A stretch of 38,353 bases of DNA, taken from positions 1 to 38,353 of the IMG/VR virus record IMGVR_UViG_3300009107_000005, one strand, 5' to 3'. The notes beneath the pieces are model-generated. The model ran no database searches, was not told the origin of the DNA, and worked only from the letters and a program-made list of their open reading frames with translations. How positions within the stretch are numbered: position 1 is the first letter of the stretch; every line of letters starts with the position of its first letter. A program made the translations under genes and the position numbers. Shown here piece after piece: positions 29,481-33,730 of the stretch. This DNA is from a virus.

Positions 29481-30062
29481 GCTGAAAGAGAAAAATCGTT
29501 TCTTGAAAAACTCAAGGATGCGTTAACTAAAAGTCAAGGCAGAGTAAAAACAAGGAATGCAAGAGATTGGTTTCAAAGAAAAGCCAGGGCATTAAAATCA
29601 GAATTAAGAAGTAAGTTCACACAAGTTGATACTGCTGATGAATTCTATCAAAAATCTAAAAAGACAAGTAAACGTAATATTGGACCTGGTTCAATGTTTG
29701 CATATTTTTATGATCCAAAATATAAAAAAGAATTAAAATACTATGATAGATTCCCTCTTGTTCTTGTATTTGATTTTAAGCCAAATGGTTTCATTGGTTG
29801 TAATATGCACTATCTACCACCTCTCTTGAGAGCAAAATTGATGGACGAAATCGACAAAGCAAAAGGTATAAATTGGAAAGCATTGTCAAGAATAAAAGAA
29901 GTGAAACCAACAGTCAAAAGATATTTGTACAAACATATAAGTTCTAAGGTCGTTGAGATTGCAGATGATGAAAGAGAAATAGCATTGTTTCTACCAACAG
30001 AACGTTTTAAGAAAGAAAGCAAACTCGTAGTTTGGGGAGATAGTAGGAGCATGATCAAATGA
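29478..30062 (+). CDS. Virion/head protein, candidate gp2-like DNA end protector
   Basis: 194 residues from the ATG at 29478; a more upstream in-frame ATG lies inside the gp4 coding end and would disturb the conserved 15-mer that precedes this start. The product is very basic (KSQGRVKTRNARDWFQRKAR, KSKKTSKRNIGPGSM) followed by FAYFYDPKYKKELKYYDRFP and LVLVFDFKPNGFIGCNMHYL, PPLLRAKLMD. T4 places gene 2 next to gene 4 and the basic nature suits DNA binding, so gp2 is a reasonable guess, but T4 gp2 is longer (about 270) and I cannot align them. The end overlaps the next gene by ATGA. Alternatively a neck or connector accessory protein. Confidence 0.5.
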   Translation: MAEREKSFLEKLKDALTKSQGRVKTRNARDWFQRKARALKSELRSKFTQVDTADEFYQKSKKTSKRNIGPGSMFAYFYDPKYKKELKYYDRFPLVLVFDFKPNGFIGCNMHYLPPLLRAKLMDEIDKAKGINWKALSRIKEVKPTVKRYLYKHISSKVVEIADDEREIALFLPTERFKKESKLVVWGDSRSMIK

Positions 30063-30628
30063 CAGATATAGGAAAATTAACAAACCTTACAAATTTTAAT
30101 CCTGTACCAGTAAATAGGTACATAGCAAAAGTATACTGTCCTATCGTTTCAAGTATTAATACGCAAACTCTGGCTATGACGGTAGAAAGTGCAGAACTTC
30201 CAGGCAAAACAATCACTACGAGTGAATCAAGATTATATGGACCTGTAAGAAAAATACCTTATAATCTAGGTTTTATAGATACGACATTTACGTTTATGTG
30301 TTCAGATGCTTATATAGTAGAAAAAAGATTTTTTGATAAATGGGCAGATTATATTATTAATCCTGATACTTTTGATGTAGAGTATCATGATAGTTTAGTA
30401 GGAAATATCAATCTACAATTAATGGATAATCATAATGAAGTAATGTACGAGGTAGACTACATAGACGTTTTTCCTATCAACGTAAGTGCAATGAACTTAG
30501 GATTTGGTCAGATGAATGACTATGCAAAATTTTCTGTTACATTTTCTTATAGAAAATGGAAGGCAAAAGATATTGAATTTAATACCCCTTCTCAGCAATC
30601 ATTAAATCCTGCTGATAGATTAGGGTAA
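30059..30628 (+). CDS. Tail tube-fold protein (gp19 or gp54-like)
   Basis: 189 residues. The layout follows phage tube proteins: an N-terminal strand block (VNRYIAKVYCPIVSSINTQT), the ESAELPGKTITTSE turn (as in VxxxxLPG of tube monomers), DTTFTFMCSDAYIVEKRFFDKW with WADYIINP, then VEYHDSLVGNINLQL, YIDVFPINVSAMNLGFGQ and FSVTFSYRKWKA. The FPxxVxxxxLxxxxxxxxxxFxVTFxYxxW ending is shared by T4 gp19 and gp54. Because gp19 normally sits beside the sheath gene, which is not in this window, this copy may be the tube initiator gp54 or a second tube protein. It directly precedes the gp26 chaperone and tape measure, the standard tube-chaperone-tape order. Ribosome binding site GGAG, start overlaps ATGA. 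Confidence 0.72.
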   Translation: MTDIGKLTNLTNFNPVPVNRYIAKVYCPIVSSINTQTLAMTVESAELPGKTITTSESRLYGPVRKIPYNLGFIDTTFTFMCSDAYIVEKRFFDKWADYIINPDTFDVEYHDSLVGNINLQLMDNHNEVMYEVDYIDVFPINVSAMNLGFGQMNDYAKFSVTFSYRKWKAKDIEFNTPSQQSLNPADRLG

Positions 30629-30638
30629 TTAATAATTT

Positions 30639-30650
30639 GTGACACAGGCT
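30639..30650 (+). repeat. Leader arm of a 12-nt inverted repeat flanking gp26
   Basis: GTGACACAGGCT, 5 bases before the AAGGAG of gp26. It is the exact reverse complement of 31399-31410, which begins at the last base of the gp26 stop codon. The arm can extend by a G-U and two A-U pairs on its outer side (30636-30638 with 31411-31413). It is noticeably more GC-rich than its surroundings. Confidence 0.8.
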
Positions 30651-30654
30651 AACA

Positions 30655-30660
30655 AGGAGA
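30655..30660 (+). promoter_or_regulatory. Shine-Dalgarno of gp26
   Basis: AGGAGA (with the preceding A, AAGGAGA) ends 4 bases before the ATG at 30665. It lies just 3' of the long-range complementary arm, so pairing of that arm could affect ribosome loading. Confidence 0.8.
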
Positions 30661-30664
30661 TATT

Positions 30665-31399
30665 ATGGCTTTACCGGTGCTTAATGCACCAACTTATGAA
30701 TTGACTCTTACATCAACCGAAGAAACGATACGTTATCGTCCTTTTTTGGTGAAAGAAGAGAAAATTTTGTTGATGGCATTAGAAAGTGGTGATGATAAAG
30801 AAATGATGAGATCTATGAAACAAATCATTTCAAATTGTGTGGAGAAAGAGATAAACATTGAAAAGTTGCCTCTATTCGATATACAGTATTTGTTTTTAAA
30901 TATAAGAAGTCAATCAGTAGGTGAGACTTCTCAATTAAGATTTAAACATCCTGATGATACAAATTCAAAAGGTAAAACTTGCACACATATCCAAGATGTT
31001 GTAATTAATCTTAAAGAAATAAAACCAGAAGCAGTTGAAGGACATACAAAAAAAATTAATTTAACAAATGATGTTGGTGTGACTATGACCTATCCTGGTT
31101 TTGACATGTATGACAAAATTATTGCACTTCAAGACGAAACTGCTTTAGATATAATATTTGATATTGTATCGAGTAGTATAGAGATGATTTACAAAGGTGA
31201 AGAAGTTTTTTATGCTGAAGATCATACAAAAGAAGAGGTGATAGAATTTTTAAATAGTTTGAGTTCTATTCAATTTAATAAAATAAGAAATTTTTTTCAA
31301 ACTATGCCTTATCTTAGGCACGAATTCGATTATAGTTGTGATAAATGCGGTTGCACAGAACATGTAACATTAGCGGGAATTGAAGATTTTTTCGCATAA
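30665..31399 (+). CDS. 26: Baseplate hub/tail assembly chaperone gp26 family
   Basis: 244 residues (T4 gp26: 208). It carries the family opening LPVLNAPTYELTLTSTEETI followed by RYRPFLVKEEKILLMALES, typical of T4-type baseplate chaperones, then IEKLPLFDIQYLFLNIRSQSVG and the GVTMTYPGF strand. The C-terminus has a small Cys cluster (CDKCGCTEH) that may bind zinc. It is flanked by a tube-fold protein and the tape measure, the position of the lambda gpG-type tail chaperone. Its last codons (GAT TTT TTC GCA TAA) contain a slippery heptamer; a -1 shift would extend it by 63 residues into the next ORF to give about 306 residues. Strong Shine-Dalgarno. Confidence 0.88.
   Translation: MALPVLNAPTYELTLTSTEETIRYRPFLVKEEKILLMALESGDDKEMMRSMKQIISNCVEKEINIEKLPLFDIQYLFLNIRSQSVGETSQLRFKHPDDTNSKGKTCTHIQDVVINLKEIKPEAVEGHTKKINLTNDVGVTMTYPGFDMYDKIIALQDETALDIIFDIVSSSIEMIYKGEEVFYAEDHTKEEVIEFLNSLSSIQFNKIRNFFQTMPYLRHEFDYSCDKCGCTEHVTLAGIEDFFA
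31387..31393 (+). other. Candidate -1 ribosomal frameshift site TTTTTTC
   Basis: Read in the gp26 frame as T TTT TTC, the classic X XXY YYZ arrangement, two codons before the stop. After a -1 slip the codons CGC ATA AGC CTG TGT CAC GAA AAT CTT CAA AAT CAC TAT lead without a stop into the ATG at 31432. The 5-base spacer GCATA separates the heptamer from the long-range complementary arm. Confidence 0.75.
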
Positions 31400-31410
31400 G
31401 CCTGTGTCAC
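31399..31410 (+). repeat. Downstream arm of the 12-nt inverted repeat flanking gp26
   Basis: AGCCTGTGTCAC, exact reverse complement of 30639-30650. It overlaps the last base of the gp26 UAA codon and forms most of the loop of the local 11-bp hairpin at 31380-31422. Confidence 0.8.
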
Positions 31411-31431
31411 GAAAATCTTCAAAATCACTAT

Positions 31432-31584
31432 ATGACAAATTTTAACTTGATGCAACACCACAAATATAGTTTGACTGAATTAGACAATATGATACCATTT
31501 GAAAGAGAAATTTATGTACAATTATTGATACAACATATTAAAGAAGAAAACGAAAGGTTGAGAGACCAACAAAACCAGAGATAA
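31432..31584 (+). CDS. 50-codon tail chaperone extension (T-like), probably expressed as -1 frameshift fusion to gp26
   Basis: A short frame between gp26 and the tape measure. Its product reads KYSLTELDNMIPFEREIYVQ then LLIQHIKEENERLRDQQ, the same kind of short 'aromatic, LxEL, (P)FxRxIYxxLL' peptide seen in the T part of tail chaperones. The ATG at 31432 has no Shine-Dalgarno (AAAATCACTAT precedes it), while the frame is open upstream to the slippery site inside gp26 in the -1 register. I therefore regard the fused product (gp26 residues 1-243 plus 63 more) as the likely form. It ends 1 base before the tape measure ATG. Independent translation by reinitiation after gp26 remains possible. Confidence 0.75.
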   Translation: MTNFNLMQHHKYSLTELDNMIPFEREIYVQLLIQHIKEENERLRDQQNQR

Positions 31585-31585
31585 A

Positions 31586-33730
31586 ATGGCTAGAAAAACA
31601 CTCGGTAAAATGGAGTTCGCAGAATTAATTGACAGTTTGAAAGAACAAAATCAAGGTCAATTAGAGGCTCAACAAGAAACGACAAAAAGCATCAGAAATC
31701 TCACTGCATACTTTCTTAAACAAGATAGAGCAGAAGCAAGAAGAAGTCTTGAAGATCTTGAAGATGCAATGGAAACGAGAAAAGATGCTGAACAAGTTGG
31801 AACATCAAAAGGTAAAGGTATTATAGATGCAGAAAGTGCTTTGAGTGATAAAGGTCTTAATCTAGTAGAGGCTCAACAACAAACAACAAAAAGCATACAA
31901 GATCTTCAAGCATATTTTTTTAAACAAGATAGAACAGAAGCAAGAAGAAGACTTGAAGATAAAATGGAAGAAGAAAAGTTGGCAGTACAAGTTAGTAGAG
32001 ATGGTTCAAAAAAAGAAAAAGGATTCAAAGAAGGAAAAGGAAAAGGTTTACTAGGCGCATTTAGCAACTTTCTTACTACTGGTTTATTGGGAACTGCTGG
32101 TGCAGGACTTTTTAAAACTGCAATGAGTGCTATAAGATTTAAGCCTGGTTTTGGTATGAAACTCGGTAAACTTTTTACAGGTGCTTTAATTTTACCTAGT
32201 CTTTGGGAGTCAATTAGTAAAGGTATTGACGAATATGGAAAAAGTGGTGATCTAAGTGACTCCTTAGCAAAGGCAGCCACAACATTTTTCAAAGACGATC
32301 CTGTAACAAGTGCAGGATTAGGAGCATTAGCAGGTTTTACTTTTGCAGGACCTAAAGGTGCCATAGCAGGGGCAATATTAGGTGGAGCAGTAAGTGCATT
32401 AGTTGCAGGTATTGGTAGAGAAGGTACTGAAAATCTTATAAGCAGTATTGGAGACTTCTTTACAGGACCTGCTGGTATGGGGGCACTTGTTGGAATTTAT
32501 GGTGGTAAAGCATTAATGAAACAGAAAATTGTGAAAGGTAAAGGTTTAAGACTGTTTGGTATGAGAGGTATGAGGGTTGGTTTAGCCGCTTTGATTATTG
32601 GACCTGTATTAGGAGCAATCGAAAAAGGTATGAAACCATCCGGAGATGATGTTGGCATATCGAGTAAAATAAGCAAGTTTTTATTTTCAACAGATCAAGG
32701 TGGAATATCAACTGCTGATGCCGCCTTAACTGGATTAGGTTTGGCGGCACTTGGACCGTTTGGTATACCTGGTATGATTGCAGGTGCAGTTTTAGGACTT
32801 GCATATAAGGCAGTTGACGATGGCATGAGAAGTAAAACTGCTGGTGCAGGTATTATGGATGTGACATCTGATGCAGTAGGTTCTTTTTTTAGAAAACTAG
32901 ATTTAGGTATTGCCGCCTTTTTTGGTGATGATAGAGCAGACGAAATTCTTGAGAATATGGCTCTTAAAGAATCGAGAATGGATTTTGGTGAATCATTATT
33001 GAAAATAGGTCAACACGGAGATAAAGGATCAATAGGTGACCTCTTTCAACAATTCAGAAAAGATAACAAATTATCATATGATTCTTCAAGTGATAAAAGT
33101 GTAGATGAACAAACCCATGAAGCATTTCTAAAATTTTTATCTGGTTCACAAGTAGCAAGAGATAAAGGAATATTAAAAACTGATGCCACAGGCAAATCAA
33201 GTTTAGATCTTGGAAGTTTACAAGGTGCCGATCTACAAGAAACACAAGCATTACTAAAAAGTTTTATAGGTGCATTTGCTAAAGAGCAAGGAGTTGAAGT
33301 AGGTGGAACAGAGACAAGAGGATATGGTAAAACTAGATTTATGTCAGGATTTCAACCTTTGATATCTGGTATAGGCAGAACGGTAAGAAATGAAACAGAA
33401 GCCAAAAAAGAATTGGAAGCAAAAGGTGTTGTAGCAAATGCAAGAGGTGCCCAAGTATATCGTAAACCTACACTTGCTCTTGTAGCAGAAAAACCAGGTA
33501 CCGCAGAATATATTATGAGTGATAGAAATCTTGCAAGATTAGCAGATACTATTGCAACTCAAAGAGAAAATCAAACAATGTCTTCTATGATTCCTATTAT
33601 GATGGGACAAGGTGGTGGAGGAACATCTATGCCAGTTATCAATAACTCATACTCATATCAAAACACGGAAAATACCGTGAGAGAAATGCCTACCACCAGT
33701 TCTCTAAACATGATGACGGCACTGGCATAG
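31586..33730 (+). CDS. Tail length tape measure protein (gp29 analogue)
   Basis: 714 residues (T4 gp29: 590). Helical, charged N-terminus (FAELIDSLKEQNQGQLEAQQ) with an internal repeat, then several glycine/alanine-rich hydrophobic stretches: residues about 152-175 (LLGAFSNFLTTGLLGTAGAG), 241-275 (AGLGALAGFTFAGPKGAIAG and on), 330-345 (GLAALIIGPVLGAI) and 380-410 (LGLAALGPFGIPGMIAGAVL). These resemble the membrane-inserting parts of tape measures. The C-terminus has the familiar ending LALVAEKPGTAEYIMSDRNL followed by a helix, as in many tape measures. It follows the chaperone and its frameshift extension, the normal gene order. It ends 13 bases before the convergent gp32 end, with no terminator hairpin that I can see. 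Confidence 0.78.
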   Translation: MARKTLGKMEFAELIDSLKEQNQGQLEAQQETTKSIRNLTAYFLKQDRAEARRSLEDLEDAMETRKDAEQVGTSKGKGIIDAESALSDKGLNLVEAQQQTTKSIQDLQAYFFKQDRTEARRRLEDKMEEEKLAVQVSRDGSKKEKGFKEGKGKGLLGAFSNFLTTGLLGTAGAGLFKTAMSAIRFKPGFGMKLGKLFTGALILPSLWESISKGIDEYGKSGDLSDSLAKAATTFFKDDPVTSAGLGALAGFTFAGPKGAIAGAILGGAVSALVAGIGREGTENLISSIGDFFTGPAGMGALVGIYGGKALMKQKIVKGKGLRLFGMRGMRVGLAALIIGPVLGAIEKGMKPSGDDVGISSKISKFLFSTDQGGISTADAALTGLGLAALGPFGIPGMIAGAVLGLAYKAVDDGMRSKTAGAGIMDVTSDAVGSFFRKLDLGIAAFFGDDRADEILENMALKESRMDFGESLLKIGQHGDKGSIGDLFQQFRKDNKLSYDSSSDKSVDEQTHEAFLKFLSGSQVARDKGILKTDATGKSSLDLGSLQGADLQETQALLKSFIGAFAKEQGVEVGGTETRGYGKTRFMSGFQPLISGIGRTVRNETEAKKELEAKGVVANARGAQVYRKPTLALVAEKPGTAEYIMSDRNLARLADTIATQRENQTMSSMIPIMMGQGGGGTSMPVINNSYSYQNTENTVREMPTTSSLNMMTALA
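31664..31756 (+). repeat. Tape measure N-terminal repeat, copy 1
   Basis: 93 bases encoding EAQQETTKSIRNLTAYFLKQ and the following DRAEARRSLED. By hand count it matches copy 2 at about 79 of 93 bases, starting 204 bases (68 codons) upstream of it. Confidence 0.8.
31868..31960 (+). repeat. Tape measure N-terminal repeat, copy 2
   Basis: 93 bases encoding EAQQQTTKSIQDLQAYFFKQ and the following DRTEARRRLED, in frame with copy 1. The segment between them is less conserved. Confidence 0.8.

Follow-up and report, generated by a model that had tools for sequence, protein, structure and literature searches.

The window, that is, the whole stretch of 38,353 nucleotides of viral DNA analysed in this study, belongs to a marine T4-like phage and carries a gp26 locus on its plus strand. 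The upstream gene (30059..30628, +) is tail tube/gp54-like (phrog_3629, E 1.5e-28; phrog_45, E 3.5e-28). Between its stop codon and the Shine-Dalgarno sequence of gp26 (AAGGAG, 30654..30659, +, identified from the sequence) lies an untranslated element, TTTGTGACACAGGCT (30636..30650, +), hereafter the leader arm, whose invariant core TGACACAGGC (30640-30649, +) is spaced 11 nt from that stop. The gp26 gene itself (30665..31399, +) encodes 244 aa, matches PF12322 T4_baseplate (E 1.8e-60) and phrog_150 (E 1e-65), and would specify the short form of a tail assembly chaperone (TAC-N). It ends GAT TTT TTC GCA TAA; a single codon (GCA) separates the slippery heptamer T TTT TTC (31387..31393, +) from the stop TAA (31397-31399). 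A second element, the 3' arm AGCCTGTGTCACGAA (31399..31413, +; core 31400-31409), starts 5 nt past the heptamer and doubles as coding sequence, specifying S-L-C-H in the -1 frame.

The -1 frame extension (31393..31584, +) would form the C-terminal part of a 306-aa long form (TAC-NC). It is gp51-like, matching phrog_634 (E 1.1e-22; annotated as 'baseplate hub assembly catalyst', gp51) and the C-terminus of phrog_150, and it contains a 50-codon ORF that begins with an ATG (31432..31584, +). One base further on, where an earlier reading of this DNA made from the letters alone (the sequence-only reading) had placed the tape measure, a 714-aa ORF does begin on the plus strand (31586..33730), and its identity as the tape measure protein is presumed from its position and length and from HTVC008M, in which a gene shortly 3' of gp26/gp51 carries the annotation 'putative tail tape measure'. 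Pfam and PHROG profile searches with this ORF gave no Pfam match and no convincing PHROG match. The region encoding its N-terminus (31586-31990) holds a diverged tandem repeat, LEAQQETTKSIRNLTAYFLKQDRAEARRSLED / LVEAQQQTTKSIQDLQAYFFKQDRTEARRRLED. HTVC008M (L094) differs from the window in that a 110-codon ORF (2403-2735) separates its gp51-like ORF from the tape measure gene.

A -1 slip on T TTT TTC leads into CGC ATA AGC CTG TGT CAC GAA ..., a frame that stays open up to the TAA at 31582-31584 and gives a fusion product of 306 aa with the junction FF-RISLCHENLQNHY. The sequence-only reading had described a canonical heptamer at the end of gp26, a -1 frame open into the 50-codon ORF, an ATG at 31432 without a Shine-Dalgarno sequence, and products of 244 and about 306 residues joined at this very junction, and we found all of these as described. 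It had also given gp26 the role of lambda gpG with a programmed -1 frameshift, and had looked to the heptamer and the open -1 frame in relatives as the point on which this would stand or fall; both proved to be conserved, which supports the proposal. Specifically, in the first 80 related viral contigs T TTT TTY stands at the gp26 end in 80/80, and in the same 80/80 the -1 frame is unbroken from the heptamer to the gp51-like domain. Among 188 non-redundant loci, 180 have T TTT TTY and two (L239 and L262) have T TTT TTA, by which the second slip codon of gp26 changes from Phe to Leu. At least 40 open codons follow in the -1 frame of 176/176 untruncated loci of this set, and in the +1 frame of 0/176. 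In the final non-redundant set the heptamer is present as T TTT TT[C/T/A] in 232/239 loci, and the remaining 7 are T4-type and Ackermann-type phages. Isolates sharing the layout include S-PM2, HTVC008M, Atu_ph04, Stenotrophomonas Yut3, Cronobacter S13, Aeromonas 65 and Vibrio D482.

Fixation at the wobble position points the same way. In 178/178 loci the heptamer uses TTT for its first Phe, against 27% TTC among Phe codons elsewhere in the same genes (log10 P ~-31 with loci taken as independent; ~-10 with 50 representatives of <55% identity); this test took in heptamer-bearing loci only, the heptamer-less loci being few. At the level of sequence, we therefore regard the joining of gp26 and the -1 frame ORF by a programmed -1 frameshift as a confirmed observation. 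Besides, the Ackermann-type loci L089, L096, L097, L098 and L100 carry gp26 homologues without T TTT TTY, and their -1 frame is open across the stop. Their ends read N NTT TTY or similar (ATT TTC, CTT TTC, GTT TTT), like the T7 gene 10 type of site, and are probably a variant frameshift site.

The PF12322 match, together with the gp51-related C-terminal part, places the product of the window in the T4 gp26/gp51 family. The abstract of Vladimirov and colleagues is said to report frameshifting that is conserved across several T4-like groups, with T4 using genes 26 and 51, and our data from the window and its relatives agree with that account. T4 itself has 26 and 51 as divergent, separate genes. 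The long-form profile matches T4-group gp51 over the full length (hhalign 99.4%, E 2.7e-21), and the alignment of T4-group gp26 to the same profile reaches the slip site only (hhalign 99.3%, E 6.5e-21); judged by these alignments, gp51 is the fused long form in T4. The frameshift described here is a further case of a known kind and not a first. The sequence-only reading knew of no frameshifted chaperone established for the gp26 family, and the view that there was none is not supported. Vladimirov, Gautam & Davidson 2022 (Virology 566:9-15) identified T4-like tail assembly chaperones, as cited in the PRFect paper (PMC10274946) and the phage Adele paper (PMC12846349); the former credits them with finding, in some T4-like phages, a short gene together with a long fused one, and the latter with poly-T slippery sites in the TAC-N genes of such phages. 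The present locus resembles these pairs in family (PF12322, phrog_150/634), in its short and long forms, in the poly-T slippery site and in its place before the presumed tape measure gene. It differs in the long-range leader pairing described below, which is not mentioned in the papers citing them.

GenBank records frequently list gp51 as a CDS of its own, and this might suggest that gp26 and the 50-codon ORF are separate genes, the latter using its own ATG, and that the heptamer merely reflects a conserved Asp/Ser-Phe-Phe end. We consider this highly improbable and have rejected it. Codon usage does not account for the fixed wobble positions, conservation of the -1 frame extends back as far as the heptamer, and T4 gp51 aligns as the fused long form. 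Furthermore, in 5 loci of the 188-locus set none of the first 30 -1 frame codons is a start codon (ATG/GTG/TTG), and the ATG in the window has no Shine-Dalgarno sequence; the small ORF probably has no translation start of its own. We argue instead that what is annotated as 'gp51' in many cyanophages and pelagiphages is the second half of a gp26 gene. The two products are predicted to be a tail assembly chaperone pair, TAC-N and TAC-NC. An AlphaFold model of the chaperone reached a pLDDT of 87; a PDB fold search for the TAC fold gave nothing significant, with the HK97 TAC 2ob9 at a probability of only 0.30 (E 2.2), and a PDB sequence search gave no match.

The most unusual part of the locus, absent from the sequence-only reading, is an inverted repeat formed by the two arms. 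An inverted repeat search showed the leader arm to be complementary to the 3' arm over 15 nt, with 14 Watson-Crick pairs and one G-U pair, at a distance of ~760 nt. The pair of arms is also present in relatives, even though the rest of their leaders is unrelated. Among 229 non-redundant loci with a readable leader, both arms (the leader motif TGACACAGGC and, past the heptamer, GCCTGTGTCA) are present in 23 and neither in 206, and a single arm is found in none. Nine of the 23 are the window or were found by protein similarity, and fourteen were found by the 3' motif; a search for the 3' motif gives no preference to the leader motif. The 23 loci form one clade, with gp26 identity down to ~45%. 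A single supported set of 24 rows (97) contains them all, and its one other row, L234, lacks both arms. In all 23 the arms lie 751-769 nt apart and the 3' arm begins 5-6 nt past the heptamer, and the distance from the leader arm to the ATG varies from -16 to -27. The duplex would comprise 10-16 bp (-19.6 to -28 kcal/mol), and in the predicted fold of 23/23 transcripts the core has a mean pair probability of 0.97-1.0.

Several look-alikes were set aside. Chance explains the pattern hits in L107, L123, L124 and L137, which fall outside gp26 and lack a leader arm, and a pattern scan of genome contigs returned two unrelated hits without gp26 or a leader arm. The near-motif loci L299 and L258 have no leader partner. 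The window and its nearest relatives also hold an 11-bp perfect local inverted repeat (31380-31390 / 31412-31422); as a candidate stimulator this hairpin was rejected, its 5' arm including part of the slippery site and the repeat being lost beyond the closest relatives.

The sequence constraint on both arms is strong. Among 14 representatives (<75% identity) the leader core, which is positioned past the stop of the upstream ORF, is 100% conserved, against 30-65% at most flanking positions. The 3' arm codons AGC-CTG-TGT are identical in 91/91 representative pairs, although these genes encode 4% of Ser by AGC and 2% of Leu by CTG, and the other Leu codons of the -1 ORF are identical in 17-50% of pairs. 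Relatives outside the clade that encode the same Ser-Leu-Cys-His after the heptamer vary these codons (AGT/AGC, CTT/CTC/TTG, TGT/TGC), and they have no leader copy. The flanks of the arms are variable yet mostly paired (G-C, A-U, G-U), reaching 16 bp without a mismatch in L122. Standard pair counting and covariation on the 23-locus duplex were not significant, because the 10-bp core never varies and compensatory change is confined to the flanks, and tree-based pair tests of the duplex had too few independent changes (2-4 events). Taken together, selection on the pairing of the two arms is well supported.

An inverted repeat around one gene could look much the same if the arms were opposite-strand copies of a single DNA element flanking gp26, such as a protein-binding site, a promoter, or the ends of a recombination unit or mobile cassette, with no RNA pairing at all; the invariance of the core would fit such an element. 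However, among the longer clade contigs, each one spanning the complete locus has exactly one plus and one minus copy of the core 10-mer, and the pair is the sole occurrence in contigs of up to 84 kb. The 3' copy, moreover, lies inside coding sequence in a fixed register to the heptamer, and complementarity extends past the core, with G-U pairs and the compensated flanks seen in L122. We judge the DNA element very unlikely and take the arms to be, most likely, strands of an RNA duplex.

What this duplex may do is suggested by the same stretch of sequence in the other clades. There, the stretch after the heptamer is complementary to sequence 34-180 nt downstream (mean score 16.97 vs 14.0 for shuffled sequence), with strong downstream matches in 16.3% against 0.7% of shuffled cases. 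It shows no excess pairing in those clades to an upstream coding control (14.03 vs 13.84 shuffled) or to the leader, and the leader pairing is thus not general to T4-like phages. In the window clade the leader pairing score is 31.6, compared with 13.3 for shuffled elements, and the same comparison yielded no downstream partner. Examples of such downstream pairing are a hairpin in S-PM2 and the helix CCCT[C/T]TC / GA[A/G]AGGG at +13/+114. This helix has both sides changed in 8/19 sequences (0/500 shuffles), C-G and U-A interchanging between the strands, which amounts to about 3 independent changes. Local folding past the heptamer is the stronger in non-motif loci, with a mean z of -0.81 vs +0.46 in the motif clade. 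In non-window clades, for example in L017, L019, L044, L046 and L278, a stretch 6 nt past the heptamer pairs with Trp-Glu-Arg codons ~100 nt on. A distance of 5-6 nt past the heptamer is the usual place for a stimulatory stem. As the 3' arm occupies the position from which other clades pair downstream, the duplex is most likely a frameshift stimulator whose partner has moved upstream into the leader. The simplest reading of the relatives is that the strand after the slip site has stayed constant as the 5' side of a stimulatory helix, and that its partner was relocated among several downstream places and, once, in the window clade, to the leader upstream.

A sequence of the form T TTT TTY is able to slip without any structure. 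The poly-U heptamer might then suffice, and the duplex might be kept for control of gp26 translation initiation, by occluding or exposing the Shine-Dalgarno sequence or by closing the mRNA for re-initiation, with slipping unaffected. This is a real alternative, since the leader arm adjoins the gp26 ribosome-binding site and, in one subclade, lies within it: the arm stops a few nt before the Shine-Dalgarno sequence in the window, and the L007/L009/L014 group shows no other Shine-Dalgarno sequence between the core and the ATG. Against it stand the 3' arm, which begins 5-6 nt past the heptamer in 23/23 loci, where other clades have downstream-paired stems, and the leader arm, whose distance to the ATG varies. 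We hold initiation control to be unlikely, though it is the main rival. Against a stimulator we count L234, a member of the supported clade that dispenses with both arms.

Our preferred reading, which we hold with reasonable though not high confidence, is a single frameshifted chaperone gene in which the slip is stimulated by an RNA duplex between the leader and the 3' arm ~760 nt apart. The majority of ribosomes would terminate after gp26 and yield TAC-N (244 aa), and some would slip by -1 on T TTT TTC and yield TAC-NC (306 aa). The helix would start 5-6 nt past the heptamer, its other strand being the untranslated leader of the same gene, so that, with both arms paired, the whole gp26 reading frame would be the loop of a giant hairpin. 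A ribosome translating gp26 would thus travel inside the loop and reach the G-C end of the helix with the heptamer in its decoding sites, and a stall at that point would favour slippage of both Phe codons by -1. We infer that the duplex forms during translation and raises frameshifting. As a likely consequence, a ribosome initiating on gp26 would cover the leader arm, so that frameshifting might fall as initiation rises and the ratio of short to long form would be tied to the initiation rate. That the locus holds a natural frameshift stimulator formed in cis by a strand 5' of the start codon, with a short:long ratio responsive to ribosome loading on the same gene, we put at an even chance. The ratio of the two chaperone forms is considered critical for building the tail; here a DNA phage appears to set it by a long-range RNA helix from the leader to the frameshift site, a layout that would couple initiation to recoding.

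The slippery sequence of lambda G/GT differs from T TTT TTC. Lambda G/GT nevertheless has, like the window, a short form and a -1 frameshifted long form of a chaperone, which in lambda binds the tape measure (PMC5009743 Fig. 4), whereas the protein sequences are unrelated; the available part of that review describes no duplex with a leader 760 nt upstream for lambda. Long-distance stimulators in BYDV, PEMV RNA2, RCNMV and IS3411 have downstream partners (review by Atkins et al., PMC5009743). In the first three the partner joins a local stem-loop, whereas the window has it upstream, within the leader of the frameshifted gene itself, and a conserved local stem at the shift site is not seen in the motif clade, in keeping with its positive mean z. 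The ALIL pseudoknots of the IS3411 type are also bacterial frameshift elements stimulated by pairing with a distant second element, but theirs is a stem-loop in its own right, found 44-104 nt downstream. Frameshift stimulation has also been tested with synthetic oligonucleotides that anneal 3' of shift sites (PMC5009743 section 49); these share with the window a plain duplex 3' of the shift site, the difference being that they are synthetic and act in trans, and the strand in the window is natural and in cis. T7 gene 10 has an unexplained effect >200 nt 3' (PMC5009743). The stimulators of this review include no natural partner in an upstream leader, with a stem that the ribosome would approach from within the loop; our coverage was of open papers, and an earlier description is possible. 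What looks new is a conserved upstream RNA strand, ~760 bases off in front of the gene, apparently built to pair exactly at the slip site and probably favouring the slip. Finally, a strong local hairpin occurs right after the heptamer in L082 (S-PM2), L273, L281 and L307, outside the clade of the window; in S-PM2 its arms are GTTCTATAATAAT ... ATTATTATAGAAC.
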